Origin: Lunularia cruciata
Taxonomy: Eukaryota; Streptophyta; Marchantiopsida; Lunulariales; Lunulariaceae
Direction of reading: 5' to 3'
Length of the DNA stretch: 64,000 nt
NCBI GenBank assembly: GCA_948567375.1
Contig: OX419755.1
Coordinates: forward strand, 47,572,291-47,636,290
This document shows, piece after piece, positions 17,218-51,025 of the stretch. The stretch's first letter is position 1. Each line of letters begins with the position of its first letter. The position numbers were made by a program, and so were the translations under genes. The notes beneath the pieces were generated by a model, which was not told where the DNA came from, made no database searches, and worked only from the letters and a program-made list of their open reading frames with translations.

Positions 17218-17386
17218 CCTATAGCTAGTTCATTCTTTATATGGTATAGATTGCAGACAAGCGACTAACAATAGGGCTCCATAGCACCCAGCCTCCTGAT
17301 CTTTGCCCATTAGAGGGTATACCATATACTTAGAGTAGATGGCTATCTGGAGTTAGAGGGACCTAACCGCCCCCTAGGGAGGCAAT
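17218..17386 (+). other. A1 3' untranslated region and polypurine-like tract
   Basis: About 170 bases after the stop codon, conserved in A2 (38754-38921). It ends in a G-rich run (cccctagggaggcaat) immediately before the X repeat. In A2 the run is tagggggcaat, and in the minus-strand copy near 24140 it is aataggggggtgat. This is where a plus-strand primer (polypurine tract) is expected. Confidence 0.6.
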
Positions 17387-18038: not shown

Positions 18039-18043
18039 AAATC

Positions 18044-22300: not shown

Positions 22301-23509
22301 GTTGAGAATAAAGGAGAGTACATAATCAACTAAGCCACTCCTAACATCATGTTAGATCCAATCCCTGTATTAGCAAGTGATTGACTAGTATCTAGTCCAT
22401 CATGCACTCCATCACCACCTACCACACCTACATTAGGCTATCTAGGAGCTATAGATGTTATATATATTGCTTTAAAAAGTCTAGAAGATTGGGGAAGTCT
22501 AACATGTCTACAAGCCTCTCCTCTTTGTAGGGCCAACTCCATTGATGCTCCTCTAAGCTCAAGAGCATGCATTACATTCCTAGTCATTATGGAGAATGTA
22601 TCTACTAAAGCTGATCCACACATTAAGTCAAGGATATCTCTATCACCCTAATAAGAAATGAAAGATTCAGTACTTGAATCTGATCTCCTTTGAGCTATAG
22701 CAATGTTAGCTTGTCTTTGCTTCAACTACTAAATCCAAGTAGCCATGGTGGTATCAGAAGTAAAGGTAGGTACTTGGTCCTTATCAAGTGGAGGTCCTTT
22801 ACTATCTTGTCTTCCATGACCCTTAGCTCCTCTACCTCCTACCATAGTTTCCTTTTCATTCCACAACTCCTTGTGTAACTCAAATTATTGGTCAATAGCA
22901 TGACCAAATATATGGCAATGATCACATTACCTTTGGGTTGATTGAAGTGCTCTAGAGGTATCATGCACACCACCCAAAGTGCAGTCTCTCTTGTGTTGAG
23001 GTCCACCACAAGTCCAACAAGCAACACCATCACTCATTGACTACTATCAATCCAAAAATGAAGGTAAGTATCTATGTGCACTGGGCTCTCTATTCACTCC
23101 ATGAGATCAAAATAGTCCACTTTGTCCATGTAAGCCAACTTGGTGTGGTGCACTTTATAAGAAGTAAAAACTATGGATAAGGTCTCTCTACCAAATCCAG
23201 ATGTCACCATACTCTCCTTTACCATGTTGAGCTCAATGAATTTTGTCAAACCAAAGACCACCACCAAAGTTAGTGAGGTAGCCTATAACAATGTAGCATC
23301 ACATACCTTATGTCATAGTTCCCTATCTAGTTTCCCATATCAAAATTGGACAACATGAGCCTCAATAACTCCTTAAGTGAAACTTATCAACAATCTCATG
23401 CAAGTTTATGCCTTGTAGTAGCTCTCTCTAGCCTTTCTCTAGCCTTTAGAACTCCTACAAGCTCTTTAGCTTGTCACTTTGCACTACTTGGTAGTTCTTC
23501 TCAAGCATT
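22301..23509 (-). pseudogene. Minus-strand family A copy: gag remnant
   Basis: Reading leftwards from 23509 the minus strand matches A1 gag from about 10405, with decayed forms of KQNYQGVWTNKLRSLQEF, then the zinc-knuckle region near 23020-22880 and the WIEQLEQR helix near 22740. The copy begins inside gag, directly against the X' end at 23510, so its own 5' repeat and leader are missing. A tandem-copy recombination or deletion would explain this. Confidence 0.75.
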
Positions 23510-24140
23510 TATTGTGCATATATACATTGCTACACAACAAAAATTGTTGTCAACATCACACACTATAGAAGCACACCTCACACATAAGTCATACATGGAC
23601 TCTAAATTGCCACAAGAATCAGTTTGTTCATACAACTTGAATCACACTCAATCAGATCAATAATTGATCTGTCACTCAATAATTTGCCAACAATTGGGTA
23701 CTAATTATAGTCAAGCCACACCCACTCTAGCTTAGAGATTCCAAGTGTTGCTCACCGGCTTTTTGTCCACTATAGCAAAGAACTCAAAGGCTCAACAATA
23801 GAGAAGTGAGCTCTTTGGAGCTACACTCCCAAGGTATACTCTTGATTTTGACATATGTCTCATACAAATGGTCCACCTAACAACACACTTGACGGTGCAA
23901 ATGGTGCAAGTGATGATGTAGTCAGTACACAAAACACAAAATCTAATTGTCGGAAAGTAGTCTATGAGTAATCGCCAAAATACCTCTAACTACTATCATT
24001 ACTACTTTAGTGTCCAAGCAATCTAGACGTGATGCTACAAATGACATGACAACTGTCATACATATATACATTGCTACAAAACATACATTGCTCTCAATAT
24101 CACACACTATAAAAGCATACATGGACTCTAAAGTGCCACA
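23510..24140 (-). repeat. Minus-strand family A 3' compound terminus X-Y-X'
   Basis: On the minus strand: X about 24140-24057, Y about 24055-23616, X' about 23614-23510. X follows a G-rich tract (aataggggggtgat). The order matches the A1 and A2 3' ends, a third independent instance of this arrangement. Confidence 0.75.
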
Positions 24141-24565
24141 ATCACCCCCCTATTTGGCGGTTAGGTCCCTCTAACTCCAAATAGCCATCTATTCCAAATA
24201 TATGGTATACTCTATGGTAGGCAAAAGATTAGGAGGCCAGGTGCTATCTAGCCCTATTGTTAGTTGTTTGTCTACAATCTATACCATATAAAGGATGAAC
24301 TAGCTATAGTTTAAGTACATCTAGGACATAATAACTATCTCCAAGTAACCACCATGAGGGGAGGAGTCATACATGCCATATGCCATCCTCTCAAACAACT
24401 ATCACACACTAACAAAGTAGCAACTCCACCTGAAGAGCCTCATAACATACATCCAAGCCTGCACATAAAAGTGCCAAGCTTGGGTCCATAGTACCATCAA
24501 TGTTTGGGAGGTGGCATGGTGCATAATTGTGCACATTGATGCTTCTAAATAAGACCATCACATTT
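24141..24565 (-). pseudogene. Minus-strand family A copy: PHD finger and integrase end
   Basis: The minus strand resembles A1 at about 16980-17385. The PHD region is recognisable around 24330-24470 but several Cys codons are disrupted. The sequence is cut at 24565 by element C and resumes at 32372. Confidence 0.75.
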
Positions 24566-25253
24566 TGTGAGCCGGCCTATCTCTCACTCAAGATGAACCT
24601 CTGATGGCTATTATGGTAATGCACCATGGACTAAGAAGGCAAGGAACCCCAACTCTATCATACTCCTCCAAGGCTAACACTCCAAGACTCAAGACATTGC
24701 TCACTAGAGAACTCAATGAGAGAGATAGTTGCAAATGAAAGGATGTTGAGTACCTCCTCACCCCTTGTTTATATACTTGTGAAATAATTACGTACCAAAG
24801 TTACTAATTACTGGAGTAACTCAAGTTATTAGGTTAAAGTCAAGTAGAGTCAAAAAGTAGAAAGGAATATCCATTCACATGGGCATATTCCACTAGCATG
24901 TGATCCTATCTTGACCCAACCACTAAGTCAAGGATTCATTCAAATGGGCTATCCTTGGACTATAGAAGAATCCAAAACAAAAAGGCTTGCGGGCCCAAGA
25001 GTTCTCAACTCTTTCCTCAAAGCAAAACACCTAGGAATCATACCAAGTCAACACACTAGAATCCAAAATAGTGGTGCTCATCTTTTCCACCTCCTCTAAA
25101 GTAAGGTCCCTTCTATCTTATCTATGACTAACTCTAGCTAATCATGACTAATGTAGAACCATCCTTTATCTCTATATAAACAATATCTCTCAAGTACTTG
25201 TAATACCAAGCTAAATATCACAATACCACATACATGCACAAATGGGTGTTACA
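24566..25253 (-). repeat. C 3' LTR
   Basis: Plus strand starts TGTGAGCCGGC and ends GGGTGTTACA; it is nearly identical in layout to 31662-32371. A purine-rich tract (minus strand agtccggaggtaaa, 25254-25267) lies immediately inside, as expected of the polypurine tract. Confidence 0.9.
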
Positions 25254-25568
25254 TTTACCTCCGGACTTTATTTTCACTTTGTCCTCAAAGTGAAGGTCTC
25301 TCTACCTTCTATGGTACATCTTCAACTTATCATGGTTAATCCTATCAAAGTGTCTTCCTCCCAATTCCTTGAGATCATAGGTATAATTGCCCCACACCTT
25401 CTCCACTATGAAAGGTCAAAAGTAATTAGGCAAAAACTTCTTTTGCACTCTCTTGAATCGAATGGAATCAAACAAAATAACCCAATCACCTTCTTTGAAA
25501 GGCTCCACCTTCTTCTTGCCTTGTCTATTGTCATAGCTCTCCTTTTGTTTCCTTTGGGCTTGCTCCAC

Positions 25569-26117
25569 TCAAACCATAGCAACTACTCTTGCCTCTTCCA
25601 ACTCCGTGAGTTGATCCTTCCTTGACTTCTCTCCATCACCTCCTTGTGATTTCTTCAATCTCTTATGAATGCTTTGGAATGTAGGAAGATCAAAGTGAAT
25701 AGGTAAGGTAGACTCAATACCAGATACCAATTGAAATGGAGAATACCCGGTGGAAGTCTTCATGGTTATCCTATACTCCCACAAAACTGCATGAATCCTC
25801 TTGTCCCAATGATGTTTAGCTCCCTCCATTTCTGCATCTTTGGCCAACATCATGCACAAGGTCTGATTGGTTTTCTTTGCCAAGCCATTGGAATTTGGCT
25901 TATATGATGTAGTTACTCTATGTGTGATAGAGAAATGTCTTAGCATAGCTGTAATAATGCTTCTTGTAAACTCTCCTCCTCTATCAAAAACCAACTCCAA
26001 AGGGCATCCAAACCTAGTGATAATGCATTCATAAAGAAATCTACCCACTTCATCTCCATTCTTGTCCCTCAATAGTCTAGCCTCAACCCACATGGTAAGG
26101 TCATCAATAACTACCAC
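25569..26117 (-). pseudogene. C integrase core
   Basis: An open run of 182 codons. It starts within the core (VVIDDLTMWVEARLL) and has ELVFDRGGEFTRSI (second Asp), then SYKPNSNGLAKKTNQTL. The usual catalytic Glu (ER) is Lys-Lys here, suggesting loss of function. WEYRITMKTSTGYSPFQLV, the conserved gypsy segment after the core, follows. The first part of the core (26118-26322) is in another frame. Confidence 0.85.
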
Positions 26118-26322
26118 AATGTACCAATTGTTCCTTGGGATTCTATTGAGAGGACCTACAAAATCAATTCCCTACTTCTCAAAAGGTCCTAGCAATGGAA
26201 TTGATCTAAGTGGTAGAGTGGATGTAGACTTTCTAGCAAAAGCTTGACAAACATGACAAGTTTTGCAATAATCAAGACAATCCTTGAAAATCCCTCTCCA
26301 ATGGTAACCTGCATCTGGAATC

Positions 26323-26835
26323 TTAAAAGTAGTCACCTTTCATGCAAAAGTGTCCTCCACACACTAAATCTTCATGCAACTCCTTTCTGAGTGAGATAGA
26401 CTCTTCCTTACCCATTGCTCTTTGAAGTAGACCATCTGCTCTTTGGTGAAAAAGAATATCCTCCACCATTGTATAAGGTCTAGATCTTGTTGCAAGGGCC
26501 TTCCTCTCCCTAGCATGCATCCCTTCTGGATAGTTACCTCTTGTCACAAAATCCACAATCTCCTTGTACTCCATTGGAACCTCTTGAGTGACTGAGATTG
26601 TCATGAGCTCCTCATCTAGGAAGGAATCATCCACTGGCTCATCTCCATCATGATCATAGGCTCTAGATAACAAATCAACATTTGCATGTTTCTTTCTTGG
26701 CCTATCCTCAATGGTGAAATCATACTCATGCAAGAGTATCATCCACCTTGCTAGTCTCCCTTCAACATTAGGCTTGTTGAAGATGTACTTCAAAGCCTTG
26801 TGATCCGTGACAATGGTGACTTTCCCTCCAATCAA
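26323..26835 (-). pseudogene. C RNase H end and integrase zinc domain
   Basis: A 170-codon open segment. It starts in RNase H (VTIVTDHKALKYIFNKPN, LARWMILLHEYDFTIE, HANVDLLSR, all standard). After an acidic spacer it ends in the start of the integrase zinc domain (LRKELHEDLVCGGHFCMKG). The missing His/Cys ligands are in the next frame. Confidence 0.85.
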
Positions 26836-27381
26836 GTAGTGTCTAAACTTTTGAGACTAAAGATACATTGCCAACCCTTCTCTCTCCGTGATAGAGTAGT
26901 TCTTTTCTGCTGAAACCATCTACCTACTAGCATAAGCTATTGGATAATCATGCCCATCTTGGTCTAATTGACTAAGAGTGCATCCTATAGCTACATTAGA
27001 AGCATCAGTGTAGAGGATGAAAGGCTTACTCCAATCAAGTTTAACAAGAATTGGAGCTACAACAAGGGATTGCTTGAGCTCCTCAAAAGCTTTGAGAGCC
27101 TCCTTGTCCTCCAAAATCACCATGTAATCTACACCCTTCTTCATGTAGATGGTCAATGCATAAGCCTTGTAGGAAAATGAGAAGATGAACCTCCTATAGT
27201 ACCCAACCATCCCCAAGAATTGGCGTAACTTTGTCAAGCTTGAAGGGAATGGAAGGTCTGAGATTTTCCTCACCTTCTTAGGATCAACTACTATTCCATC
27301 CTTGGATGATGTGCCCCAAAAGTAGACCTTCTTCACATCCAAAAATGCAATTCTATGCATTGAGTGATGCATTTGCCTCAT
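26836..27381 (-). pseudogene. C RT thumb and RNase H start
   Basis: The open segment 26920-27381 contains LRQFLGMVGYYRRFI (RT connection), a charged EEL segment and FILYTDASNVAIGCTLSQ (first RNase H Asp), ending near DYPIAYASR. It is separated from the RT palm by a frame change. Confidence 0.85.
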
Positions 27382-27802
27382 CCAAGCGTTGCAAGACCTT
27401 GATTAGGTGCTCAAAGTGCTCCTCCTTGCTCCCATAGACACAAAAGTCATCAATGAAGTCTCTCACAAATTTCCCAATGAAAGGTTCAAATACCTTGTTC
27501 ATGAACCGTTGGAATGTGGCTGGAGCATTGCAAAGCCCAAAAGGCATGACCTTGAAAGCGTAAGTTTCCCAAGGTGTGGTGAATGTGGTGAGTTGTTGAT
27601 GCTCTGGTGCAATCTTGATTTGGTTATATCCACTATAACCATCTCCAAAATTGTACCTCTCATGACTTGCAACCTCCTCCAAGATCTCATCAATGAATGG
27701 CAATGGGTAGTAGTTCTTCTTGGTAACAACATTGAGCTTCTTGTAATCCACACATACCCAAAGCTTGCCATTCTTTTTCTTCACAATGACAACTGGAGAC
27801 AT
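27353..27802 (-). pseudogene. C reverse transcriptase palm
   Basis: A 149-codon open segment with all core RT blocks: VVIVKKKNGKLWVCVDYKKL, YYPLPFIDEIL, MPFGLCNAPATFQRFM and the active site RDFIDDFCVYG (FIDD in place of YxDD). It is among the best preserved pol pieces in the window. Confidence 0.9.
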
Positions 27803-28234
27803 CTATTCCAAATTCTCTACCTCAAAGATAAATCCAGCCTCCTTGAGCTTATCAATCTCCTCCTTCACAACCACAGACATTTGTGGGTTAATGCAACATT
27901 GCTTTTGGCAGATTGGTCTTGCATGTGACTCCACCTCTATCTTCTGCTCCTCCAAGGTGACTTCCTTCAAATCCTTGTAACTAAAAGCAAACACATGGAT
28001 GAACTTGCAGAAAATCTCCTCAAATCTCACCTTCTCCTCCTTGGTAACATTTGGACCATACTTGAGGGTAGATAACCTTCTCTCTATCTCCTCAAGTGTC
28101 ATTGGTGATTTATTTGGGTCCTTCAAAACCTCTGGCTTAGGTGAAAAATCCATAGCACACAAGAGATACACATCTGAATCAGATTCAAATTCATCCTCCT
28201 CCGTGGAAGTCTCCTCTTCCATGCTTGTGTCCAC
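27803..28234 (-). pseudogene. C protease-RT linker
   Basis: A 143-codon open acidic segment containing FEEIFCKFIHVFAFSYKDL and a segment before RT (QMSVVVKEEIDKLKEAGFI) that matches the start of gypsy RT. It joins protease to RT. Confidence 0.75.
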
Positions 28235-29167
28235 ACCTGAAGCTCCTTCTTCAGAATCTGATTCTCAATAATCAGAAGATGGTGTATCTGAATGTGAAGT
28301 GTTGGTGGTGTTATTCATAGGAACTGTGACTCTATGGTTTGATGGCCCAATCCTCAAGTACCCTTTGTGTCATTGATCAGTTGTGCGTGCTGCTCTCAAC
28401 CATGGCCTCCCAAGAAGTAAGTCATAGCTTGAATCCTTCAAGACTTAGAAAGTCATGAGATTTTGAACTTCCATAACTGAAACTACCACTTTATCCATCA
28501 CCCCTATTGGTCAAACTTGTTGCTTGTTTGCCATGCTTACCACACATGTTGAAGGTCTTGAGGGTATCATACCCAACTTCTTTATCAACCTTTCTGACAT
28601 GGCATTCACTGCTGATCCTCCATCAACCAATGCATCCTTGATGTTATGACCATTCACTCTCACATCAATCTTGGAGGCATATTCACAAGCCTCCCATGGT
28701 ATTGGCTTGGCATCCACCACCCCCATTGATACAAGAGCTTTTGCCTTCTTCTTCCTCTTGCTCCTTGTAGAACTCAAACCACCTCTAAGCTCCTTTCTCA
28801 AGGTAGGGTTCAAAGCAATCAATTGGCCCATTGTGATGTTAGCCTTGTGACTACCAACATCCTCCAACACATTGTAGTTCCATTGTTGCTTTGAAATCAA
28901 GAAATCCTCCATCTCTAACTTCTTCCTTGGAGTCTTTGTTGTTGATGGTGTTGAAGTGCAAGTGCTCCTAGTAGACATAGGAGTATCCTTGCTTGGAGTA
29001 AATCCTTGAGAAAAGTGAACATCCTCTGCAAAATGAGATCTCTTCTTCTCTTGTGCTAATAGCTCTAAATTAAGACCCTTGGAGTTTGAGCACTCTCCCT
29101 TCTCATACTTGCTCTCAACCACATCTTTGTATGCTATCTCCTTACCTTTGTTTGGATTAGGAGCCAC
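28235..29167 (-). pseudogene. C aspartic protease region
   Basis: The 218-codon open run at 28511-29167 ends with KDALVDGGSAVNAMSERLIK, the active-site loop with D-G-G-S in place of D-S/T-G. The segment CVVSMANKQQV follows, and the rest of the protease continues to about 28270 in another frame. The N-terminal half is a Lys/Ser/Thr-rich spacer. Confidence 0.75.
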
Positions 29168-29199
29168 TTGGGTTTCACTACCTCCCTCTTTCCCTCTAT

Positions 29200-30104
29200 T
29201 GGCTCCCTCTTAACCCCTTCCTCCATGGTAAGTGGAATTTGGGCAATTCCTTTGGATATGGCCTATTCCTCCACAACCAAGACAATTTCTATCATTGAAA
29301 TTGTTGGCTGGTTGGCTTCCTCTATATGAATAGTTTCCATAACTCCTAGGCCCTCTCCCTACATTCTGATCCACCTCTCTTTTTTTCCTATAGTTGCACC
29401 ACATTCTTGAGATATGCAAGTTGTTCTGTGATGGTTTAAAGTGGATCCTTTGGTGGAGGTGCAAGAACTGGAGCAACTTATACTTGCGGTGCAACCCTTG
29501 CCACCAAAGTATCAGAATTTCCACCATACTTGTAGCCTTGAGGAGGATGTACAACCTTGTTCACCACCAAATCACTCTCATCCCCTTCCAAACTCTCCTC
29601 CATACAAATTGCGATCTTGATAGCTTCAACCTTGGAAGAAGGTTTCTCATATCTCACCTTGATTTCAATTTGTGGTCTCAACCCTCCCACAAAATTCTTG
29701 GTGAGCAGGGGCCAATCATAGTAGTCTCCACATCATCCCCACCCTTCCTCAACACTATGCAAAATCTTGACTCTAACTTTTCCACTCTTTCCACATAGAC
29801 CCTCACTTTCTCTCCATCTCCTTGCTTGAGAAAGGTAATCTCACTCATAACTCTTATCAGGAAAGTTCTCAATGAGTGCTGAAGTTAAAGTCTCCCAAGA
29901 CTCCTCTTCCCCATCTCTCTTCTCTCTCTTTTGGTATTCTGACTCATACCATGTAAGTATTGCATCCTCAAAGAAATCTAGTAATAATGAGGCCCACTCA
30001 TTCTTCCTCATCTCATTCTTTCCTATGCAAGCTCTCTTGAAGTCTCTCACAAAGGCCTCCATATCTTCTCCATCCTTGCCAAAGAAAACCGGAAGTTTCC
30101 CCAT
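29200..30104 (-). pseudogene. C gag with CCHC zinc knuckle
   Basis: Overlapping open pieces. MGKLPVFFGKDGEDMEAFVR, followed by LLDFFEDAILTWYES (30104-29841), is a classic retrotransposon gag start. Then come an MRTFLIRVMSEITFLKQ segment and ICMEESLEGDESDLVV. Finally there is a zinc knuckle CLGCGGIGHIQRNC near 29285-29240 (C-X2-C-X4-H-X4-C). Three frames are used, so small indels have accumulated. Confidence 0.85.
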
Positions 30105-31661: not shown

Positions 31662-32371
31662 TGTGAGCCGGCTTGTCTATCACTCAAGATGAACCTCTGA
31701 TGGCTATTATGGTAGCGCACCATGGACTAAGAAGGCATGGAACCCCAACTCCATCATACTCCTCCAAGGCTAACACTCTAAGACTCAAGACATTGCTCAC
31801 TAGAGAACTCAATGAGAGAGAGATAGTTGCAAATGAAAGGATGTTGAGTACCTCCTCACCCCTTTTTTATATACTTGTGAAATAATTACGTACCAAAGTT
31901 ACTGATTACTGGAGTAACTCAAGTTACTAGGCTAAAAGTCAAGTAAAGTCAAAAAGTAGAAAGGAATATTCATTCACATGTGCATATTCCACTAGCATGT
32001 GATTATTCCACTAGCATGTGATCCTATCTTGACCCAACCACTAAGTCAAGGATTCATTCAAATGTGCTATCCTTGGACTATAGAAGAATCCAAAACAAAA
32101 AGGTTTGTGGGCCCAAGAGTTCTCAACTCTTTCCTCAAAGCCAAACACCTATGAATAATACCAAGTCAACACACTAGAATCCAAAATAGTGGTGCTCATT
32201 TTTTCCAGCTCCTCTAAAGTAAGGTCCCTTCTATCTTATCTATGACTAACTCTAGCTAATCATGACTAATGTAGAACCATCCTTTATCTCTATATAAACA
32301 ATATCTCTCAAGTACTTGTTATACCAAGCTAAATATCATAATACCACTCACATGCACAAATGGGTGTTACA
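31662..32371 (-). repeat. C 5' LTR
   Basis: Plus strand TGTGAGCCGGC to GGGTGTTACA, 710 bases, 22 longer than its partner. Most of the excess is a small duplication of ttccactagcatgtgat near 31987-32010. The minus-strand end TGTAACACCC is typical of gypsy LTRs. Confidence 0.9.
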
Positions 32372-32561
32372 GTTCTTTTAACACAAGGATTCTAGATGGA
32401 AAAACCTCACGCACTCTCAAGATAGTGCAGCCTTTAGAAACATCAAGTGTTGTCAATGTTGTCTATTATAGATATATATAGTCACCTAGATGAAATTGGT
32501 AGATTGAGGATCTATAACCTCTTCCTTGAATGGTAGGATAGCGTAAGGTATCCTTATCCTA
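32372..32561 (-). pseudogene. Minus-strand family A fragment: integrase C-terminal region
   Basis: The minus strand matches A1 at about 16790-16965, including cactatcttgagagtgcgtg and the FHPGDYVYL region. It is the continuation of 24141-24565 across element C. It ends abruptly against A2, in head-to-head orientation. Confidence 0.75.
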
Positions 32562-32578
32562 TAGAGACTGAGTCTAGC

Positions 32579-33352
32579 ATGATGTTGGGGGCGGCTCAGC
32601 TGATTATGCGGCATCCTTTGTTTTCAACCAGTGACATGTTTACATTGGGAGTTGACCCAGCCCCAGTGTTCCGATTGGCTGCCATGTTGTGTGAGAGTAA
32701 GGATGATGCAGTTCCTACTACTAGAGCAGGGGTGGTTGGTAGTGAAGCTGACTTGGTTGAGGAGCATGGGATCCATTTAGCGACTTGTGGTTTATGGCAG
32801 GCAGCAGCGGCTATATTGGAGGAGTTGCCCGCTAAACCGGCCTTTGAGAGAGCGCGGTTTACACCTGGTGTTGTCTTATTGGATAACCAGAGGGGGATTT
32901 TTCATTTGGTGGGACCTTTAGGTAAGGTCTATACACCACAGAGAGTCTTGTTAGACTCTGGTGCACAGCCCCTTATGTTGGGGAAGGCTATAGTTGTTGG
33001 TCTAGAGTTACGGAAGACCGATGTGGAGAGGTGTCCATTTCAGATCCAAACATCTCTAGGTGGTGGTTCAACACAGCACATCACACGTGGAGAGCTTGTT
33101 GTCCAGGTTCAACCTGGTCATCCGACTGATAGCTCGGTGATGAGAGCTCAAGCTATTGCGACAATAGCTGAGTCATATGATGTGCTAGTTGGGGGAGCAG
33201 TGTTATACCCCATGGGTTTCGGCATTGACTATTGGGAGGAGACAACCTCTTATAGACCTAGTTGGCAGTCTGGTGAGGGATGGGTATGTCGCCTACCAGT
33301 AGTGGCAGTCTTGGCTCACTACAGTCCGAGACCATGGCAACATCAGTTCTAG
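32579..33352 (+). CDS. A2 gag end and retropepsin (open, 257 codons)
   Basis: Open segment of the Gag-Pol frame. The first 110 residues are the gag-protease spacer (MFTLGVDPAPVFRLAAMLC). The protease has YTPQRVLLDSGAQPLMLGKA with an intact D-S-G-A active-site loop near residue 125. ESYDVLVGGAVLYPMGFGID is equivalent to the conserved ILG(M)xW block. The frame ends at 33352 because of a 10-base deletion relative to A1, where protease and methyltransferase share one frame. The first listed Met is internal, not a proven start. Confidence 0.75.
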   Translation: MMLGAAQLIMRHPLFSTSDMFTLGVDPAPVFRLAAMLCESKDDAVPTTRAGVVGSEADLVEEHGIHLATCGLWQAAAAILEELPAKPAFERARFTPGVVLLDNQRGIFHLVGPLGKVYTPQRVLLDSGAQPLMLGKAIVVGLELRKTDVERCPFQIQTSLGGGSTQHITRGELVVQVQPGHPTDSSVMRAQAIATIAESYDVLVGGAVLYPMGFGIDYWEETTSYRPSWQSGEGWVCRLPVVAVLAHYSPRPWQHQF

Positions 33353-33642
33353 CTTTCAATGGTGCAGTTATTTGGCCTGGTGACTTGTTGGAGAGGAACG
33401 CCCATGCAGAGGATACTCCAGTACCAGAGGAGATCACTCGGCTTTGGAGTACGAGTGGGATTGTTCCATCCACCTTGGATATTCCATTGTGGAGTTCAGA
33501 GGAGGCATTGCAGCAACATGCAGATCAATTGGTGTAGTAGGCTTGGAGTGGAGCCTTTGTACCATCAGGAGATAAGTGTGAGGATGAGCCTCTAGAGGCA
33601 ATTGCTTTGACACCTCTGGATACCACACTCATTGCTTGGTAG

Positions 33643-34941
33643 TATCCAGTAGAGGGGATATGCTTATTGGAGTTGTTTGGTGGGATCAGCATCGGACTAG
33701 CTACATTGTTACAGGCGGGTATACGAGTACATAGGTACTTGTATGTAGAGAGAGATGAGACTACTAGGCGAGTCTCTCTACATCATGTGGCACACTTGGC
33801 CTATCGTTATCCGGAGTTATTACCGATGTCAGCAGTCAGAAGTTACCAGAAGGCCCTACCACGAGACATTTCCTTATTGGGGGCGCATGACCTAGAGAGA
33901 CATGGGCCTATTCACTTGGTGATTTCTGGATGGCCATGTCAAGGACATACACGTGCTTGTAGAGGATTGGGTCTTCAGGATCCTCGTTCTAGTGTGTTTT
34001 GGGAGATGTTACGGATACTACAACATCTCCAAGTTCATCAATCCGTTTCTCCAGCTTACCTTTTGGAGAACGTTCCTTTGATAGGTGATTCTTGCACTAG
34101 AGTGGTGGTGAGTACCCATCAGGTCCATTCTTGGATGGGACCTGCTGTATTGTTAGATGCAGCCATAGTGGGATCATGGGCTCATCGTCTTTGCCTTTGG
34201 TGGACGAATCTCTTACCCAGAGAGGTTCTACAACGTGCTTATGATGGGATTCAGCAATTGGACCACATTCTTGTTGATGATATCTTGGATGTTGGGCGTC
34301 AGTCTCAGACAATGGTAATGGCTGATAGGTCACCTATGGTAGTGGTGAACCTAGTTGGACAGCCTAGAGCCGCATTTCCCACACTCATGAGTTTCCCAAG
34401 CTCTCATGCTTTTCAAGAGGGAGGACATGGACTTGTTTGGGACTCACAGTTACAGCAGTTGATGGAGCCCAACGCTGATGAGAGAGAGCGGGTGATGGGT
34501 TTTTGCACCGGTATTACCGCTGTTCCAGCAATGTCAGGGGCATCCAGGCATCATGTGTTAGGTCAGGCTATGGACCTGAACTGTTTGACCTGGATTGTGA
34601 GCCCTGGCTTGGCAGAGCAACATAGGATGCGCTTGATAGGCATCACCACTCGGACACTTGTGAGCCCTATGCCTATTGAGACGATTCAGGCACAGGCTGG
34701 GGGCGATGGATCGAGTGGACATGGTATTCTTGGGACACATCCAGTAGCTACTAGGGAGAGTGGTCTACTTGGAGTCCATCCAGGTGAGCATGGGCTACTT
34801 GGATTACACCCTTGGTCCACATGGGATGCAGCTAGAGGACGTGTGGAGCTTGTAGCCAGAGTAGAGGGAGTTTTTCACATAGAGGTTGGGACCTCTAGTG
34901 GTCGGGAGCATGACACTATTGCTCCCAAGGGCCCAGTGTAG
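33643..34941 (+). CDS. A2 DNMT3-like C5 cytosine methyltransferase domain (open)
   Basis: Open from 33643 to the TAG at 34939. Numbering from Leu-Glu-Leu-Phe at 33667: motif I LFGGISIGLATLLQAGI (3-19), motif II YVERDE, motif IV GWPCQG with the candidate nucleophile Cys91 (33937-33939), motif VI LLENVP (Glu134), motif VIII AHRLCLWW, motif IX NADERERVMGFCTG, motif X LGQAMDLNCLTWIV (298-310). Order I to X without rearrangement, and the motif IX-X spacing, resemble animal/plant DNMT3 more than CMT, MET1 or rearranged DRM. It is a polyprotein domain (no own ATG), between protease and RT. Catalytic competence is inferred only. Confidence 0.85.
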   Translation, partial: YPVEGICLLELFGGISIGLATLLQAGIRVHRYLYVERDETTRRVSLHHVAHLAYRYPELLPMSAVRSYQKALPRDISLLGAHDLERHGPIHLVISGWPCQGHTRACRGLGLQDPRSSVFWEMLRILQHLQVHQSVSPAYLLENVPLIGDSCTRVVVSTHQVHSWMGPAVLLDAAIVGSWAHRLCLWWTNLLPREVLQRAYDGIQQLDHILVDDILDVGRQSQTMVMADRSPMVVVNLVGQPRAAFPTLMSFPSSHAFQEGGHGLVWDSQLQQLMEPNADERERVMGFCTGITAVPAMSGASRHHVLGQAMDLNCLTWIVSPGLAEQHRMRLIGITTRTLVSPMPIETIQAQAGGDGSSGHGILGTHPVATRESGLLGVHPGEHGLLGLHPWSTWDAARGRVELVARVEGVFHIEVGTSSGREHDTIAPKGPV

Positions 34942-35226
34942 CAGTCAGTTAGTACGTCTTCCACTCCTACTACAGTTAAAGAGGATACTTGGGAGCCAAA
35001 TCTTGGACCCAAGCTTACTAAAGAGGAAAGACGGAGGGTTTGGAGGTTCTTGAGGAGTCACACGAGTTGTTTTGCCTTCAGTGTGAAGGATTTGGATGCT
35101 CTAAAGGGACTTGGTATACGGATTGAGCTGACTAGCGACACACCAATTTTTTGACGTCCTTATCGATATAGTGATATGGAGAGGACATTGATTTAGAGCT
35201 GGAGTAGTGACCTTTTTGAGGTTGGT
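34942..35226 (+). pseudogene. A2 linker between methyltransferase and RT
   Basis: It continues the same frame after a TAG at 34939: a Ser/Thr-rich stretch, then RVWRFLRSHTSCFAFSVKDL and IRIELTSDTPIF, the usual segment leading into gypsy RT. Two more stops occur near 35154 and 35195. Confidence 0.7.
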
Positions 35227-35736
35227 TTGGTGGAGATTTCACATGGAGAGTATGCATCAGCGACAGTGATGCCAGCCAAGAAGGATATGCATGGCAACTA
35301 TACAGATAGGCGGATGTGTGGAGCTTACCGTCCTATCAACCGACAAACCAAGGCTGATTGGTATGCCATGCCTACACCGGAGGAGATTTTTGATGCGATT
35401 GGGCATGCAAAGGTCTTTAGTACTTTGGATCTTCGAGCGGGATATCATCAGTTGCCGATCAGGGAGGAGGATAAGTCCAAGACAACATTTTGGGCTATTG
35501 ATCCTCACGGCAAGGATGTGTTATATCAGTGGAGGTTCTTACCATTTGGGTTAAAGAACGCTCCTGCTGAGTTCCGCAGGATCATGGATAGGATCCTAGC
35601 TGGATTGGATTTTACTTGGTGCTATATTGATGACATTTTGGTTTATAGAACTACTGTGGAGGAGCATGAGGAACAGTTGTTGGAGGTGTTTGAGAGGTTG
35701 AGATCTCATGGACTCAAATTAAATCTTGGGAAGTGA
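35227..35736 (+). CDS. A2 reverse transcriptase (open, 169 codons)
   Basis: In frame with the methyltransferase. It contains VMPAKKDMHGNYTDRRMCGA and YRPINRQTKADWYAMPTPEE. These are followed by FSTLDLRAGYHQLP, FLPFGLKNAPAEFRRIMD and the catalytic CYIDDILVY. All RT core blocks are present. A TGA at 35734 (A1 has TGT, Cys) ends it just before the thumb. Confidence 0.9.
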   Translation: MVEISHGEYASATVMPAKKDMHGNYTDRRMCGAYRPINRQTKADWYAMPTPEEIFDAIGHAKVFSTLDLRAGYHQLPIREEDKSKTTFWAIDPHGKDVLYQWRFLPFGLKNAPAEFRRIMDRILAGLDFTWCYIDDILVYRTTVEEHEEQLLEVFERLRSHGLKLNLGK

Positions 35737-36436
35737 AGGTTCTTCCACAAGCAAGTTGAGTATTTGGGTCACACTATCTACCCCAAAAGACTTGGTGTTC
35801 AGCATACCAAGGTGGAGGCTATTGCACATATTCCTCAGCCTATGGATGTGAGTAGAGTGCAAGCATTCCTTGGGTTGGCAAACTTCTATCGCCACTATGT
35901 TAGAGGATTTAGTGCCATTGCCAAGGCCTTGACCAAGCTGACCAAGCTTACACAAGAGTGGTGTTGGGGAGATGAGCAGGAGAGAGCTTTTGTAGAGCTC
36001 AAGGAGAGGTTGACATTTGCTCCTATTTTGAGGAGACCAATCAGGGGACAAACATTTCAAGTTCACATTGATTGGAGTATGTTGGGGCTTGGAGCGGTGC
36101 GCACCCAACATTGATGATGAGGAGAAGGAGTTTGTGGTGGCCTATGCTAGTCGCTCAAACAATTCAGTGGAGGCAAAGTATAGTTCATATGAGGGAGAGT
36201 GCTTGGCAGCAATTTGGGCAATAGCACATTTCCAATGTCACCCATTTGGTAACCCCTTCACTCTCATCACTGATCATCAGCCACTGAAGTGGTTGATGGA
36301 GTTCAACAAGCTTTCAGGGAAGCTTGCACAATGGGCTCTGATTTTACAGGAGTATGATTTCACAATTGTTCACAAACCTAGAGTGGTGAACCGTGATGCA
36401 GATGGGTTGAATAGAAACCCATGTCCCAACCAATAG
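35737..36436 (+). pseudogene. A2 RT thumb and RNase H
   Basis: 35764-36114 continues the RT frame (VEYLGHTIY, VQAFLGLANFYRHYVRGF, FQVHIDWSMLGLGAV). A one-base insertion near 36110 shifts to the frame 36068-36436, which holds the rest of RNase H (VAYASRSNNSVEAKYSSYEG, LITDHQPLKWLM with catalytic Asp kept, VVNRDADGLNR). Confidence 0.85.
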
Positions 36437-36960
36437 GATCAGACTAGAGCACCTTGGCATGGTGAGACAGATAAGGAGATGGTGCCAGGTTGGCATGCAT
36501 CGGCCTTTCTGTGTATATTTGCAGAGGCTTTGGTGGTATCTCTCTCAACGCATATAGGAGGAGTTATTGAGGTCACAGATCCAAAGAGTGAAGATATTGG
36601 TACAATACAGTGAGACATTCATGATGATGTCTTAGTGATAGACTATCTTTGCACTGGTGTTGTGGGTGGCACAATTGGGGCCAAGGAGAGAGACCGTATT
36701 CTTCAGCGAGCCACATGGTTCAGATTGGAGGGTAGACACCTTTTGCGTGTATGGGAGGATGGTAGAGTGCGAGTAGTACCACTTCCATCACAGAGACCAC
36801 AGTTGGTCTGTCATGCTCATGAGGAGCTAGGACATTTTGGAGTAAAGCGTATGTATAGCTTACTCCACAGTCATTATTGGTGGCACGGTATGCAGACCGA
36901 GTTATAGTAGTTTGTTGCCAGATGTATGGTTTGTGACCAAGTTAGAGCATCATTCAATGC
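36437..36960 (+). pseudogene. A2 integrase zinc domain
   Basis: The frame of RNase H continues through a TAG at 36436 (A1 has a Gln codon there) to CHAHEELGHFGVKRMYSLL, HYWWHGM and CMVCD, the H2C2 domain. Two adjacent stops at about 36906 lie between the His and Cys pairs. Confidence 0.8.
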
Positions 36961-37133
36961 TCCTATGCCACAGTTACACCCATTACCTATCATGGGATTG
37001 GGTTACCGTTGGAGTTTGGACTTCGCCAGACCTTTACCGCTGATTGTGAGACATCATTGGTATGTTTTGGTGATGGTGGAGCACTTCTCCAAGTGGATTG
37101 AGTTGGTGGCACTTCTTGACAAGTCTAGTGAAG

Positions 37134-37137
37134 GGAC
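37134..37137. repeat. Target-site duplication of the solo LTR (ggac)
   Basis: ggac at 37134-37137 is repeated at 37831-37834. A1 at 16291 shows the empty site (gaagggacaacttac), which proves the boundaries. Confidence 0.9.
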
Positions 37138-37830
37138 TGTGAGCCGGCCTGTCTCTCACTCAGGATGAACCTCTGATGGCTATTATGGTAATGCACCATG
37201 GACTAAGAAGGCAAGGAACCTGAACTCCATCATACTCCTCCAAGGCTAACACTCCAAGACTCAAGACATTGTTCACTAGAGAACTCAATGAGAGAGAGAT
37301 AGTTGCAAATGAAAGGATGATGAGTACCTCCTCACCCCTTGTTTATATACTTGTGAAATAGTTACGTACCAAAGTTACTAATTACCGTAGTAACTCAAGT
37401 TACTAAACTAAAAGTCAAGTAAAGTCAAAAAGTAGAAAGGAATATCCATTCACATGGGCATATTCCCCTAAGCATGTGGTCTTATCTTGACCCAACCACT
37501 AAGTCAAGGATTCCTTCACATGGGCTATCCTTGGACTAAAGAAGAATCCAAAACAAAAAGGCTTGCGGGCCCAAGAGTTCTCAACTCTTTCTCCAAAGCC
37601 AAACACCTAGGAATAATACCAAGTCAACACACTAAAATCCAAAATAGTGGTGCTCATCTTTTCTACTTCCTCTAAAGTAAGGTCCTCTCTATCTTAGCTA
37701 TGACTAACTTTAGCTAACCATGACTAATATAGAACCATCCTTTATATAAATATATAAATAATATCTCTAAAGTACTTGTAATACCAGTTAAATATCACAA
37801 TACCACACACATGCACATATGGGTGTAACA
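37138..37830. repeat. Solo LTR of a C-type element
   Basis: A 693-base sequence from TGTGAGCCGGC to GGGTGTAACA, matching both C LTRs over its full length, with 4-bp duplications and no internal region. Solo LTRs arise by recombination between the two LTRs of a full element. Confidence 0.95.
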
Positions 37831-38530
37831 GGACAACTTACTCGTTCTTGGATCGAGTTCTTAGTCATTTTGGTGCACCAGTTGAGGTTTTGACTGATCA
37901 GGGTACAGAGTTCTTGGGGGAATTTTGGGTCTTGTATGACAAGGCTTTGATTGATCATCGTACTACATCCTGAGATCACCCTGAGGCAGATGGCTTAGCA
38001 AAGAGAGTGGTTTAGACGGTGAAGAGAGGATTGCAAAAGTATGGTTTGTAGAGAGGCCACTTGGGAGATTGGGATCTCCAATTACCTTGGTTGGCCATGG
38101 GCTATTGGTTCAGCCGGCAAGCCTCCTTAGCATCCTTCTCTCCATACTTTCTACTCTATGGACAAGATCCAAATTTACCTGCAGCCATTCGTCAAGATGC
38201 TACTGTAGTTTTGGACTTGGATGACCCCGATGTATGGATGAGCGCATGTTCTCAATGAGCAAAGATCTTTCGGAGAGTGATGCCGATGGCCTTTGAGAAC
38301 TTGGCAATTGCTCAACATAGAGATACTTTACGCTATGCTACCATTTGAGGAGGAGGTTATAGACCCTTGATCCGTCGATTTCATCCAGGTGACTGTGTAT
38401 ATCTACAATAGACAGCACCGACGACACTTGATGTTTCTATAGGCCGCACTATCTTGAGAGTGTGTGAGGTTTTGCCATCTGGAGTCCTTGTGTTAGAAGG
38501 ACATGATGGTGTTGTTTGGAAGGATCATGT

Positions 38531-38753
38531 GCGCAATTGTGTGCCATGCCATCTTCCAAACATTGATGGTACTATGGACCCAAGCTTGGCACTTGTACGT
38601 GCAGGCTTGAGGTGTATGTTATGTGGCTCTTCTGGTGGAGCTGCTACTATGTTAGTGTGTAATAGTTGTTTGATAGGATGGCATATGGCATGCATGACTC
38701 CTCTCCTCACGGTGGTTCCTCAGGGATAGTGGTTATGTCCTAGATGTACTTGA
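38531..38753 (+). pseudogene. A2 PHD finger
   Basis: C4HC3 finger at 38613-38747: CMLCGSS, CNSCLIGWHMAC, WLCPRC. All eight metal ligands remain. A TAG at 38727, where A1 has a CAA Gln codon, would truncate the protein just before the final Trp and Cys pair. It continues the integrase frame. Confidence 0.85.
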
Positions 38754-38921
38754 CCTATAGCTAGTTCATTCTTTATATGGTATAGATTGCAGAGAGGCAA
38801 CTAACGATGGGGCTCCATAGCACCCGGCCTCTTGATCTTTGCCCATTAGAGGGTATACCATATACTTAGAGTAGACAGCTATCTGGAGTTAGAGGAACCT
38901 AACCGCCAGCTAGGGGGCAAT
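38754..38921 (+). other. A2 3' untranslated region and G-rich tract
   Basis: Parallel to A1 17218-17386, ending tagggggcaat directly before X. Confidence 0.6.
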
Positions 38922-39587
38922 TGTGGCACTTTAGAGTCTATGTATGACTTATGTATGAGTTGTGCTTCTATAGTGTATGATGTTGACAGCAATGTATGTT
39001 GTGTAGCGATGTATATACGCACGACAGCTATCACGCCATTTGTAGTGTCGCATCTAGATGCTTGGACACAGGAGTTCTAGTGATAGTAGTTAGAGTTATT
39101 TCAGCCATTTCTCAGAGACTACTTTCCGACGGTTAGATTTTGTGTTTGGGATACTGACTTCACGGTGGGGCCCACCGTCACTTTGCACCGTTTGCACCAT
39201 TGAGTGTGCCGTCAGTGGGACCGTTAGGGTTTTAGAGCAAGCTTGAGTCCTGGGGGTATAGTTTCAAAGTGAGCTCTAGAGAGTTCACTTCTTTGATGTT
39301 GAGCCTTCAAGTTCCTGGCTATGGTGGACAGAGGCCGGCAAGCGTCACCTAGATTCCCTATGCTTGAGTGGGTGTGGCTTGACTGTAATCAGTGCCCAGT
39401 TGTTGGCAATTTATAGAGTGATAGATCAAGTACTGATCTGAGTTGAGTTGAGTTGAGTTGAGAGTGGTAAGCAATCTGATTATTGTAGCACTTTAGAGTC
39501 TATGTATGACTTATGTGTGAGTTGTGCTTCTATAGTGTATGATGTTGACAGCGATGTATGTTGTGTAGCAATGTATATACGCATGAC
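38922..39587 (+). repeat. A2 3' compound terminus X-Y-X'
   Basis: X 38922-39026, Y 39029-39482 and X' 39484-39587. The perfect 17-base palindrome ACGGTGGGGCCCACCGT is at 39162-39178 in Y. A gagtt microsatellite has one more unit here than in A1. The element ends cgcatgaca and abuts a minus-strand family A copy. Confidence 0.75.
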
Positions 39588-40330
39588 ATCTTGGATTGTA
39601 GTGAGCCAAGACTACCACTACTAAAGGGTATTAGTAGACAACATACTCGTCACTCACTAGACTACCAACCTGGTCTATTGGAGGTTGTCTTCTCCAAATA
39701 GTCAATATTGAAACCTATGGAGTATACCATTGCTCCCCTAACTAACACATCATACAACTCAACTATGGTTGCAATGGCCTGAGCTCTCACCAAATAGTTA
39801 TCAATCAGATGATTGCACTAAATCTGAACAACAAGCTCTCCACATGTGATGTATTGTGTAGAACCACCACCTAGAGATGTCTAGATCTGGAATGGACACC
39901 TCTCCACATTGGTCTTTCGTAACTCTAGATCAATAACTACAGCCTTCCCCACCATAAGGGTTTGCATACTAGAGTCAAAGTAAGACCCTTTGTGGTGTAT
40001 AGACCTTCCTTGAAGGTCCCACCAAACAAAAATCCCCCTTTGGTCATCCAATAGGACAACCCCATGTATAAACCATGCTTCCTCAAAGGCTTGTCTAGTT
40101 GGTAACTCCTCCAATCTAGCTGTTGTTGCCTGCCATAAGCCTTTGATTGCTGAGTAAATCTCATGCTCCTCAACCAAGTCAACTCCACTATCAACTACCC
40201 TTGCTCTGGTAGTAAGAACTACATCATCCCTACTCTCATAAAGCATGGCAGCCAACCAAAACATTGGGGTTGGGTCAACTCCCAATGTACACATGTCACT
40301 GGCTAAAAATAAAATAGCATATAATCAACT
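39588..40330 (-). pseudogene. Minus-strand family A copy: protease region
   Basis: The open piece 39881-40294 matches the A2 gag-protease spacer (MCTLGVDPTPMFWLAAMLYE) and protease. The active-site loop reads FDSSMQTLMVGKAV, the counterpart of LDSGAQPLMLGKA, and it ends VERCPFQI. The copy stops at 39588, where A2 is inserted. The fragment at 32372-32561 may be its other side. Confidence 0.8.
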
Positions 40331-42080
40331 GAGCCGCCCCCAACATTGTGCTAGACTTAGTCTGTGTAGTAGTAGGTAGTCCATCATGCACCCATCACAA
40401 CCTACCACACTTGCACTAGGACATCTAGGAGCCATGGATGTCATCCGTAGTGCCTTAAAGAGTATAAAAGGCTAGGGAAGTCTGACATATCTACCAATCT
40501 CTTCTCACTCTGAGTCCAACTCAACTGATGCTCCTCTTGGCTCTAGAGCACGTATTACACTCCTAGTCACTATGGCAGATGCATCCACCTATGTAGTTCC
40601 ACACATGAAATCCAAGGCATCTCTATCACCCGCATATGAGGTAGAAGCCTCAACACCCAAATCTGATCTCCTCTAAGCTATAGCCATGCTAGCCAATCTT
40701 TGCTCCAACTGCTCAATGCAAGTAGCCATGGTTGTATTAGAAGTAAGAGTAGGTATTGCACCTATATAGGTGTGGATCTTCTACCAGCACCTCTACCACC
40801 TTGTCCTTCATGACTTGGAGCTCCTCTACTACCTGCCATAGTCTCCCTACCACTCCGTAACTCTAAGTGTAGGTCAAAGCACTAGTCACTAGTGTGACCA
40901 AATCTATGGCAATGCTCACACTATCTTTGTGCTAGCTATGATGCACCTAAGGTTTCAAGCCTATTGCCCTAAGGGCACTCTCTCTTATGATGAGGTCCAC
41001 CACAAGTCCAACAAGCAACACCGGCATTCATTGGCTGCTATTGACCCAAAAATAAAGGTAAGGGTCTAACTACAATAGGCCGTCCACTTGCTCCATAGGA
41101 TCTGGGCTCTCTACCTTATCCTCAAAAACCAACATGCCTGGTGCACTTTGCTACACTTTGGAAGAAGTAGCTGTTGTGGATGAGATCTCCCTACCAAATC
41201 TAGATGTCACCACTCTCTCTTCCACCATGTTGAGCTTAATACGCTCAGCCAAACCAAAGACCACTGCCAAATTAGGCAAAGTAGTCTAAAATAATGTAGC
41301 ATCACAGACTCTATGTTGCAACTCCTTGTCTAGTATCCCATACAAAATGGAATACATGGGCCTCAATAACTCCCTTAGTAAAACTTATTAACCATCTCAT
41401 GTGAGTGTATACCTTGCGTAGCCACTCTTTAGCCTTTTGTTAGAACTCTTGCAAGCTCCTCAGTTTGTCAATCTGCACTCCTTGGTAGCTCTACCTCAAA
41501 CATTGGAAGAACTCCACCATGAGATTAAACCTTGGTACTATACCACCTCATGTAGTAGTACCTTCACTTGTAGTAGCACCATCTCCAAGAGATCCACCAA
41601 TGCTACTAGAGCTAGAACTTGTGGGTACAACAGATCTTATTCTAAAAACCAAGCCTAAAGTGATGGAGACATAGTTCACCAATACTATCTTCATCCACTC
41701 AATCTGCTCCAAGTGAGCTCTCCTAAACTCATGTTATTTATCCATTAGCAGACCCTCTAAATGCTGAAATAATCCCTTCCATGCCATGAAGGGTGTGAAC
41801 AAAGTTGGGTTTTGCATTTGTTGTATATCACATCAACTATCAAACTCCTTGATGAAGTCATCCAACTCAATGGTACCCACTATACTAGAGTAACATTTAG
41901 GACCTGTGAAGGCCCCATAAATCTCATTCATATCTCACAACAATGGTGCGGACACACCAAGTGCACTCTTAACTGAATCAACTCTTGTATCAAACTCCAA
42001 CTTAGAGATCGTCTCCTCCCTCATTGGGACCTAAGATACAAGCTAATACCAAGTGCCACTCCAAGTAAACCCACTACATA
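40331..42080 (-). pseudogene. Minus-strand family A copy: gag
   Basis: The minus strand aligns with A1 gag over its length. It has decayed capsid blocks near 41780-41350, the first knuckle region (CWTCGGPHH form) near 41010-40980, the second near 40925-40890, and the WIEQLEQR helix near 40720. Stops and frameshifts are numerous. Confidence 0.75.
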
Positions 42081-43290
42081 TTGCAATGCATCTCCTTTGA
42101 AATCTCCAAAGAACTCCATTGTGACAAAGTAACCAAGAACTAAAACCTGCAACTACAACCTCCGCAAGTACCTTAAGTGCCAACACCGCCAAGTACCAAT
42201 ACCACCAACTAAAACGTCACTAACTAATGTAGCTCTAACTACAACAACTACACTGGGGAAAGAGCAACCTATAACCTACCATCATAACACATACTCTCAC
42301 GGTTTGCAAGTCATCATTTCCTATCTCACCGGAGAGAAATATAAGTAGTGACTGATTGGTCATCACTCCAACCTCACTATCAAGAGCACACCAGAGCACC
42401 AATGCTCTAAATTCAAGGCACCTCACATAAACATGGTGCACAAATAGGAAGCAGAGAATGGAGGGGATCCACTCACAAGAAAGCTAAACAAAAACTCTCC
42501 ATCTCATAAATCAACACCGGACTAACTCTACCACCATTTGGCATTTCACATAATCAAAGTACCTATCTACTTCTTGAGTTATGAGGATCACGAGAATGGA
42601 ATCAAAGTTCTTCTTGGACAAAATTCAACTTCACAAAATCTGACATAAATATGATGGAAAATCTGATGTAAAATCTGATGTAAATCTCTAAAAATGGCTG
42701 ACCGCCAAATCCTCCACTAACTTTTCACTTGAGCAAAATTTGAAAGATGGGTTTTGCCCAATCTCTAATTTGCTAGAGTGGGTTCCGATTCCACCTTCAA
42801 TTTCACTTTTTGAGCTCAATTCACACCAGATTGGTCCTATGTTCACCTCCTAAGCTCAAGATCACAACTACCGCTTGAAATCAACTCTTTGGGGCTCCAA
42901 ATTTGGCCAATGCTTCCGCACACAATCACTCCCAAGGAAATTAGAACTATGATCAAGGTACCACGATCCATCGGGCTTGGAGATACCACCACCACCCTCA
43001 GTTTGTGCACCCAATTTCCCCCTTACTCTCACTTCTCTGTTGTAATCAGTTTGTTCACACAATTTGAATCAATCAAATTAGTACTTGATATATCACTCAA
43101 TAATCTACCAACAACTAGGCACTAATTACAGTCAAGCCACACCCACTCTAGCTAAGAGACTCCAGGTGACGCTCACAGGCTTTTTTTCCACTCTAACCAA
43201 GAACTCAAAGGCTCAACAACAAAGAAGTGAGCTCTTTGGAGCTGCACTAACAAGGTATACTCCTGATTATATGGCACACAGATAATTATC
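42081..43290 (-). other. Minus-strand family A copy: leader and partial 5' Y repeat
   Basis: The leader (about 42081-43050) matches A1 8493-9659, including gccaaatggtgg near 42540. The Y repeat (about 43051-43290) is truncated at its outer end. As in A1, Y is followed by leader (gattacaacagagaag), not by X', confirming the 5' arrangement. Confidence 0.7.
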
Positions 43291-46620: not shown

Positions 46621-46625
46621 ATAAT
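46621..46625. repeat. Target-site duplication of F (ataat)
   Basis: ataat at 46621-46625 is repeated at 53971-53975. Confidence 0.85.
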
Positions 46626-48137: not shown

Positions 48138-48177
48138 AACCTCCCTCCTTTTAAGACGCAATGTCCTCGTTGTGCAA

Positions 48178-50992: not shown

Positions 50993-51025
50993 TTTCTCAT
51001 GAATATTTCCCTTGAGTTGTGCACT

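Follow-up and report, generated by a model that had tools for sequence, protein, structure and literature searches.

Plants silence mobile DNA by methylation, and an element that itself keeps a methyltransferase under selection raises the question of whether the enzyme serves self-silencing, disguise or protection. This question is posed by a locus of the liverwort Lunularia cruciata (assembly GCA_948567375.1, contig OX419755.1), analyzed here within a stretch of 64,000 nucleotides, referred to as the window. The original prediction had placed a DNMT3-like cytosine methyltransferase between the protease and the reverse transcriptase (RT) of a gypsy-type element of a land plant, and this placement stood: the coordinates agreed, and both PF00145 and DNMT3A were matched. 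A PHD finger and A-B-A-B repeats, absent from that prediction, were found in the later analysis. The question can be put to the test, since the element has relatives in the standard laboratory plant Marchantia polymorpha.

Identity of the methyltransferase domain

In the element copy designated A2, an open frame of 432 codons spans positions 33643–34938, and its residues 1–331 (33643–34635, plus strand) constitute the DNMT3-like C5-methyltransferase domain. The match of this domain to PF00145 was significant (E 7.8e-6; 26 bits, above the cut-off of 22) and covered residues 75–147 only; in P0122, a protein from one of the element's own genomic copies, the score reached 31.2 bits against the same cut-off. 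Human DNMT3A was the best solved-structure match by sequence (9.7e-9), and DNMT3A/B ranked top by sequence, Foldseek and VIA-align.

The expected unpermuted motif order was recovered in the A2 domain, where motifs I (FGG), IV (WPCQ), VI (ENV), VIII, IX and an X-like motif (LGQAMD) follow one another. Motif X usually contains GN, whereas the element domain has GQA. The catalytic Cys was kept in 46 of 48 alignment rows and the Glu in 44 of 48, the rows being 32–69% identical to the window domain, and both PCQ and ENV are present in the window copy. At the motif VIII position, A2 carries Cys where Arg stands in 42 of at least 47 rows, and because of this replacement the A2 copy of the methyltransferase is probably inactive. 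By its sequence, the Gag-side frame of the element ends with a C5-methyltransferase of the DNMT3 fold.

Element copies in the window

Copy A2 (32552–39588, plus strand) is truncated at its 5′ end, keeps its 3′ end, terminates in ACGCATGACA, and is 91.7% identical to a second copy, A1, across 4.4 kb. Its retropepsin region (LLDSGAQ; 32537–33349, plus strand) lies in a different frame from its methyltransferase. Behind the domain, all on the plus strand, follow the weakly constrained ORF1 tail (34636–34938), the in-frame TAG CAG TCA that ends ORF1 (34939–34947), the RT (YIDD) with the start of RNase H (35197–36111, one in-frame stop inside), and the PHD finger region downstream of the integrase (38604–38726); the families of the RT, RNase H and PHD regions were matched on the relative P0123. 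The integrase of A2 is interrupted by a solo-LTR-like insertion. Three such TG...CA copies of about 700 bp were observed in the window (24566–25256, 31662–32372 and 37138–37831), one of them being that inside the A2 integrase.

Copy A1 is present from end to end (8044–18039, plus strand) with the 4-bp duplication AATC on both sides, its interior being decayed and its frames broken. It comprises the 5′ repeat A (8044–8492), Gag zinc knuckles read by eye as CWTCGGPHHRREC and CEHCHRFGHTSDRC (10869–11102), a methyltransferase domain with in-frame stops (12644–13690, 87% identity by tblastn), the TAG CAG TCA leaky-stop context (13940–13948), the RT (14340–14945, PF00078 E 4.3e-29), the PHD finger (17071–17214), and a 3′ end at 17385–18039, all on the plus strand. 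A diverged relative of about 72% DNA identity lies on the minus strand (20311–24560) and carries the protease and a decayed methyltransferase (20311–21340) in the same order.

Four window copies had been credited with the domain. For A2, A1 and the decayed minus-strand copy this was borne out; the fourth, at 5489–5878, aligns to 34640–35027, a segment made up of tail, stop and pre-RT spacer. This minus-strand fragment (5497–5880) contains only the ORF1 tail, a decayed stop context (TAGTAACTA) and the start of ORF2, and as it is without the catalytic domain, three window copies keep the domain rather than four. Another 5′ part of the family (gag-protease; 39593–43248, minus strand) stops short of the methyltransferase.

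No tRNA gene was found within the window. Two other minus-strand features were noted: a separate repeated family at 46600–61200 with a chromodomain-like stretch (PRVDYLVQWKGYPLYEASWEP), in which a methyltransferase frame was not evident by eye, and another gypsy-like element at 25569–29209, which has frames for RT, RNase H and integrase and in which inspection by eye showed no methyltransferase.

Coding layout and genomic copies

The genome searched comprised 566 Mb in 74 contigs. The PF00145 search yielded 2161 first-look candidates, of which 123 were scored, at least four of these being host genes. From this search, 20 copies were fetched, chosen for frames of at least about 780 codons around the domain. 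By tblastn the domain was present in all 20, and in frames of at least 150 codons motif IV was tagged in 19 copies and the RT in 18, with RNase H tagged in the two that had no RT tag. As estimated from the PF00145 search together with pattern counts, the genome holds about a thousand copies or pieces of the element, and 1,027 junctions between its two frames were matched. The view of the domain as a family trait was thereby upheld, and in the fetched copies the domain is followed by RT or RNase H motifs; a one-off insertion was rejected on the same 20 copies and 1,027 junctions.

In two fetched genomic copies, gag, protease and DNMT share one uninterrupted ORF1, 1428 codons long. ORF2, in the same frame as ORF1, carries RT, RNase H, integrase and PHD after the stop. 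In P0123 the domain order was PF00078, PF17917, PF17921 and PF00665 (rve, the DDE integrase core), and the PHD finger after the integrase matched PF00628 with E 7.4e-10.

Protease, DNMT and RT had been predicted to share one frame. This is the case for protease and DNMT in intact genomic copies; in A2 the two frames differ, and a conserved stop precedes the RT. Because this leaky-type stop separates DNMT from RT, there is no continuous protease-DNMT-RT polyprotein.

Stop context between the two frames

The stop codon at 34939–34941, with which the stretch of the original prediction ended, is itself a conserved feature. TAG-CAG-[CT][CT]A was present between the frames in all 20 fetched copies, in both window copies and at four further loci. 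Junctions were counted genome-wide with a pattern requiring both exact flanks and allowing any 12 letters between them, a procedure that favors young copies; of the 1,027 junctions, 917 keep TAG-CAR-YYA, and a reversed control pattern gave no match genome-wide in either junction count. When 100 of these junctions were read letter by letter, 98 kept a stop, 96 kept TAG and 89 the full motif. Among the 89, the third codon was Pro in 70, Ser in 13 and Leu in 6, YYA being constant.

Within the genome, common ancestry of young copies could suffice to explain this conservation. The stronger points are the exact match to a known motif and the position of ORF1 ends in relatives. The context matches UAG-CAR-YYA, the consensus of type I (TMV-type) leaky stops (PMC2194720), and the TMV context is reported to allow 6–10% readthrough in transgenic Arabidopsis (PMC2754532). 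ORF1 ends 122 residues behind the DLNCLTW motif in the element's own copy, and in six relatives it ends 93 (two Marchantia), 95 (Calypogeia, Sphagnum), and 73 and 89 (two others) residues behind it. In this comparison of 14 proteins, three from Marchantia without the exact anchor motif were left out, and three others continue past the stop into the RT across a gap (gene models P0127, P0129 and P0145; two Marchantia, one Sphagnum).

The placement of the stop after DNMT puts the enzyme on the Gag side. On known readthrough biology, most ribosomes would stop at the UAG and produce Gag-protease-DNMT, while a small share would read through to the full product. With translation dominated by the stop, the methyltransferase would be produced in amounts resembling those of Gag and not those of Pol, as the stop context predicts, and would thus be a likely particle component. 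New cDNA could then be methylated before integration, incoming copies bearing host-like CG marks, and the PHD finger, whose position resembles that of a chromodomain, may steer integration to chromatin of a given histone state. This combination of a Gag-side DNMT, readthrough dosage, particle packaging, cDNA methylation before integration and chromatin steering by PHD is the best explanation, and we give it a probability of roughly one half.

The gene models that jump the stop would also agree with an ordinary ORF end at the UAG, in which case ORF2 would be expressed by internal initiation, splicing or a separate message, and dosage control by readthrough would not exist. We regard this as quite improbable. 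False introns across stops are common in gene predictions, which counts against this use of the models; a random stop would match the exact context about once in 1,500 cases by our own estimate, with even bases; and ORF2 lies in the same frame, its first 47 residues being devoid of Met in one copy.

Selection, methylation footprint and host genes

The ratio dN/dS was determined from pooled Nei-Gojobori counts over genomic copies, window copies being excluded together with those having indels, less than 60% identity or less than 90% coverage in a domain. For DNMT, a value of 0.38 was obtained (CI 0.27–0.54, 22 copies), compared to 0.21 for RT, 0.27 for both RNase H and gag, 0.37 for protease, 0.54 for integrase and 0.29 for PHD (CI 0.05–1.33). 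The ORF1 tail yielded 0.61 (CI 0.34–1.27) and the spacer before the RT 0.85. The methyltransferase thus appears constrained about as other parts of the element are, with confidence intervals that overlap those of the spacers and with copies picked for long frames. The same choice of copies applies to the 24 indel-free domain rows; decay is frequent even there, only 12 of them being free of stops.

Identities to other bryophytes were also compared. Between the retro-DNMT and proteins of Marchantia and Calypogeia, identity was as high as 72%; in other parts of the element, the Marchantia comparison gave 66% (RT), 58% (protease) and 60% (gag), with RNase H reaching 80%.

These values bear on whether the domain is kept as an enzyme at all. 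It might instead serve a non-catalytic job, such as RNA or DNA binding or particle assembly, or be a slowly decaying passenger, and the atypical motif X (GQA), the damaged motif VIII of the window copy, the dN/dS above that of RT and the stops in 12 of 24 domain rows would all fit. We consider this unlikely, given that the catalytic Cys and Glu are kept in nearly all rows across 32–69% identity, and that the identity of the DNMT to its Marchantia and Calypogeia counterparts exceeds that of RT, protease and gag, although not that of RNase H.

C/T differences between copies were most frequent at CG sites (5.4%), followed by CHG (3.6%) and CHH (0.9%). As read from the aligned copies, the CG and CHG decay is the footprint of methylated copies, and since it is strong, the element was not spared despite having its own enzyme. 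Host enzymes could account for all methylation of the element. The host genome contains two DNMT3-like loci of several exons, L029 and L030, along with L002, a gene of the DRM type whose motifs are rearranged; in a tree without Riccia proteins, L029 grouped with MpDNMT3b of Marchantia (support 100/99).

On the biology, the best rival to methylation of the element's own cDNA is action in trans, with the enzyme directed at host chromatin or silencing, for instance through marking of integration sites or competition with the host's de novo system. The DNMT3 fold, the PHD finger on the companion product and the presence of host DNMT3 and DRM genes as targets of interference speak for it. The PHD finger, however, belongs to the readthrough product and not to the DNMT product, and a benefit shared by all elements alike would bring weak selection per copy, whereas the DNMT value of 0.38 lies between those of RT and integrase. 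Action in trans is ranked as improbable, and methylation of the incoming cDNA by a packaged enzyme is preferred.

Repeats, ends and target sites

The element has the repeat layout A-coding-B-A-B, which is DIRS-like, with A (about 450 bp) at the 5′ end and B-A-B at the 3′ end (B about 110 bp). In A1, the 3′ part consists of B (17385–17492), A (17493–17932) and B (17933–18039). The ends read TGTC...GACA, and perfect 4-bp target duplications were found in 11 of 13 copies, the exceptions being L009, which is followed by another repeat, and L010. The internal B-A joint has the form GACA-GC-TGTC expected of joined ends in 9 of 13 copies.

Canonical LTRs were rejected: the sequence behind the 3′ repeat A was near-identical in seven of seven copies, and the 5′ flanks differed. 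The usual Ty3/gypsy layout of an ordinary LTR pair, one per end, is absent here as it is from the Klebsormidium element discussed below, and for this reason the element is gypsy-type by its coding region only. In place of the tyrosine recombinase of DIRS elements, it has the PF00665 integrase core seen in P0123 together with the 4-bp duplications.

In the 7 of 20 copies whose whole pair lay inside the fetched stretch, the A repeats were 97.3–99.1% identical, on account of which the family was probably active recently. Window copy A1 is older, with A repeats 90.4% identical.

At the 3′ end of L009, a second repeat A was observed after the last repeat B. Together with the minus-strand copy at 23507, this suggests that element copies may stand in tandem and share repeats.

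Relatives and phylogeny

A search with the domain returned 136 proteins, of which 120 were listed. Named hosts among the matches listed were Calypogeia fissa, Marchantia polymorpha, Riccia sorocarpa and three Sphagnum species; one match among those listed came from a bacterial bin (Obscuribacterales, P0025, 2.4-kb contig) and is presumably a misbinned contig. With the 1428-codon frame, scoring covered the 7989 candidates that had the most words in common with it and gave 47 proteins, including ones from Sphagnum fallax and from Closterium sp. NIES-53; in the Closterium match, a single protein combines protease, DNMT and RT. No relative was found in the viral contigs searched.

The domain had been expected at the same place throughout the family. 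This was true of the fetched copies, but motif positions revealed the order RT-DNMT-integrase in at least 8 of the 47 relatives, six of these eight also having the PHD motif. With the enzyme on the Pol side in such relatives, Gag-level dosage is no general need.

Among metagenome proteins, the polyproteins P0146–P0166 were seen to carry RT-RNaseH-DNMT-integrase-PHD in one frame, so that the methyltransferase occupies two positions within one domain clade. P0170 (1598 aa), diverged too far for placement, carries an N-terminal methyltransferase-like domain followed by RT, integrase and an end that looks PHD-like by eye.

The tree was built from 59 domains, three of 62 rows (P0231, P0168, P0225) having been dropped beforehand. 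All 39 retro-type domains formed one clade (100/100) that excluded the 10 plant and 4 animal DNMT3s; P0015, P0018, P0022, P0025, P0026, P0031, P0048 and P0074 were labelled by similarity with neither protease nor integrase in view, and P0094 and P0108, on the other side, likewise by similarity alone. The stem of the retro clade is long (1.85), and the forks around it among the DNMT3s were left open. A single clade for all protease-DNMT-type rows was not rejected (AU p 0.24). Recent capture from a bryophyte host DNMT3 was rejected when the 10 bryophyte-type retro rows were constrained to group with the 10 plant DNMT3s (AU p 6.3e-5).

Sphagnum copies and one other grouped with Marchantia retro-DNMTs (99/95), and horizontal transfer of the element between mosses and liverworts is possible. 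Across 267 aa, the retro-DNMT of P0122 was 71.5% identical to Sphagnum P0009, a closer match than that between the host DNMT3s of the two plants (48–51%); in this comparison, which also took in Sphagnum P0017 and P0145, two other Sphagnum gene models reached only 50–59% identity to P0122.

A wider reading can be offered tentatively, at odds well below even. One ancient capture of a DNMT3 would have founded a PHD-bearing gypsy-type clade in streptophyte algae, mosses and liverworts that was active recently; the bryophyte enzyme would be a Gag-level particle component writing CG methylation on cDNA before integration, and some of the spread between mosses and liverworts would be horizontal.

Comparison with known systems

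The presence of such an element in a land plant had been called unusual. A 2019 article describes Ty3/gypsy and DIRS elements that encode DCMs in protists, green algae and charophytes and holds such transposons to be absent from land plants, such as tracheophytes (PMC6338049). What these DCM elements have in common with the present one is a cytosine methylase carried by a gypsy-type element of the green lineage. The class itself, however, is known from Klebsormidium nitens, where de Mendoza et al. (2018) described KnitGypsy-Dnmt3, a gypsy element with a DNMT3 domain (PMC5890265), and a 2025 survey treats retro-DNMT3s as already on record from streptophytes and dinoflagellates (PMC12344493).

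By description, KnitGypsy-Dnmt3 agrees with the bryophyte element in having the gypsy domain set, in coding for a DNMT3-type domain that is under purifying selection and has unpermuted motifs, and in its DIRS-like arrangement of repeats (PMC5890265); the A-coding-B-A-B layout is described there for DIRS, with the same repeats on a gypsy core in Klebsormidium. Its host is a charophyte alga, and its domain is said to lie within the Pol polyprotein. The present element, in contrast, inhabits a land plant, its domain ends the Gag-side frame before a leaky-type stop, and its PHD finger follows the integrase. In yeast, the Klebsormidium domain, the closest counterpart in type, produced no methylation, which its authors called inconclusive, and the DNMTs of SymbioDIRS-Dnmt3 methylated CG (PMC5890265).

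The shared repeats, gypsy core and DNMT3-type domain, along with the single clade of 39 retro-type domains that includes Closterium, would suit a simpler account in which the Klebsormidium lineage was carried into land plants with no new behavior. The chance of this falls a little short of even. The comparison was made by description, a Klebsormidium-named sequence being absent among the matches listed in the protein searches, and the text of PMC5890265, figures aside, mentions neither readthrough nor PHD.

SymbioDIRS-Dnmt3 of Symbiodinium is similar in its DNMT3-type domain, its A-coding-B-A-B layout and the occurrence of two domain orders in one host group, but has a tyrosine recombinase instead of a DDE integrase, and DNMT and RT in one frame (PMC5890265). 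Orchids have Ty3/gypsy elements that carry an m6A demethylase domain; these are likewise land-plant gypsy elements that acquired a nucleic-acid modification domain, in that case an unrelated enzyme with RNA as its substrate (PMC9289625).

The host plant DNMT3s (MpDNMT3a/b in Marchantia, the two own loci here) share the enzyme fold and the unpermuted motif order with the retro domain. They differ in being multi-exon genes, with DUF3444 (PF11926) in other plants, and the retro domains group apart from them. We know of no methyltransferase in SIRE1 of soybean or in Moloney MLV, with which the element has the in-frame stop in common. In both, this stop splits one frame into two products, serving an env-like product in SIRE1 and gag-pol, with a pseudoknot, in MLV (PMC2194720).

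A literature search found, among the entries listed, no bryophyte element with a DNMT in titles and the openings of abstracts, most subscription papers lying outside its scope. We judge that the class of gypsy elements bearing DNMT3 was already known and that the bryophyte form, for which we favor a packaged, Gag-level enzyme, is a variant with a new anatomy: a Gag-side DNMT before a leaky-type stop, A-B-A-B repeats combined with a DDE integrase, a PHD finger, and bryophyte hosts.
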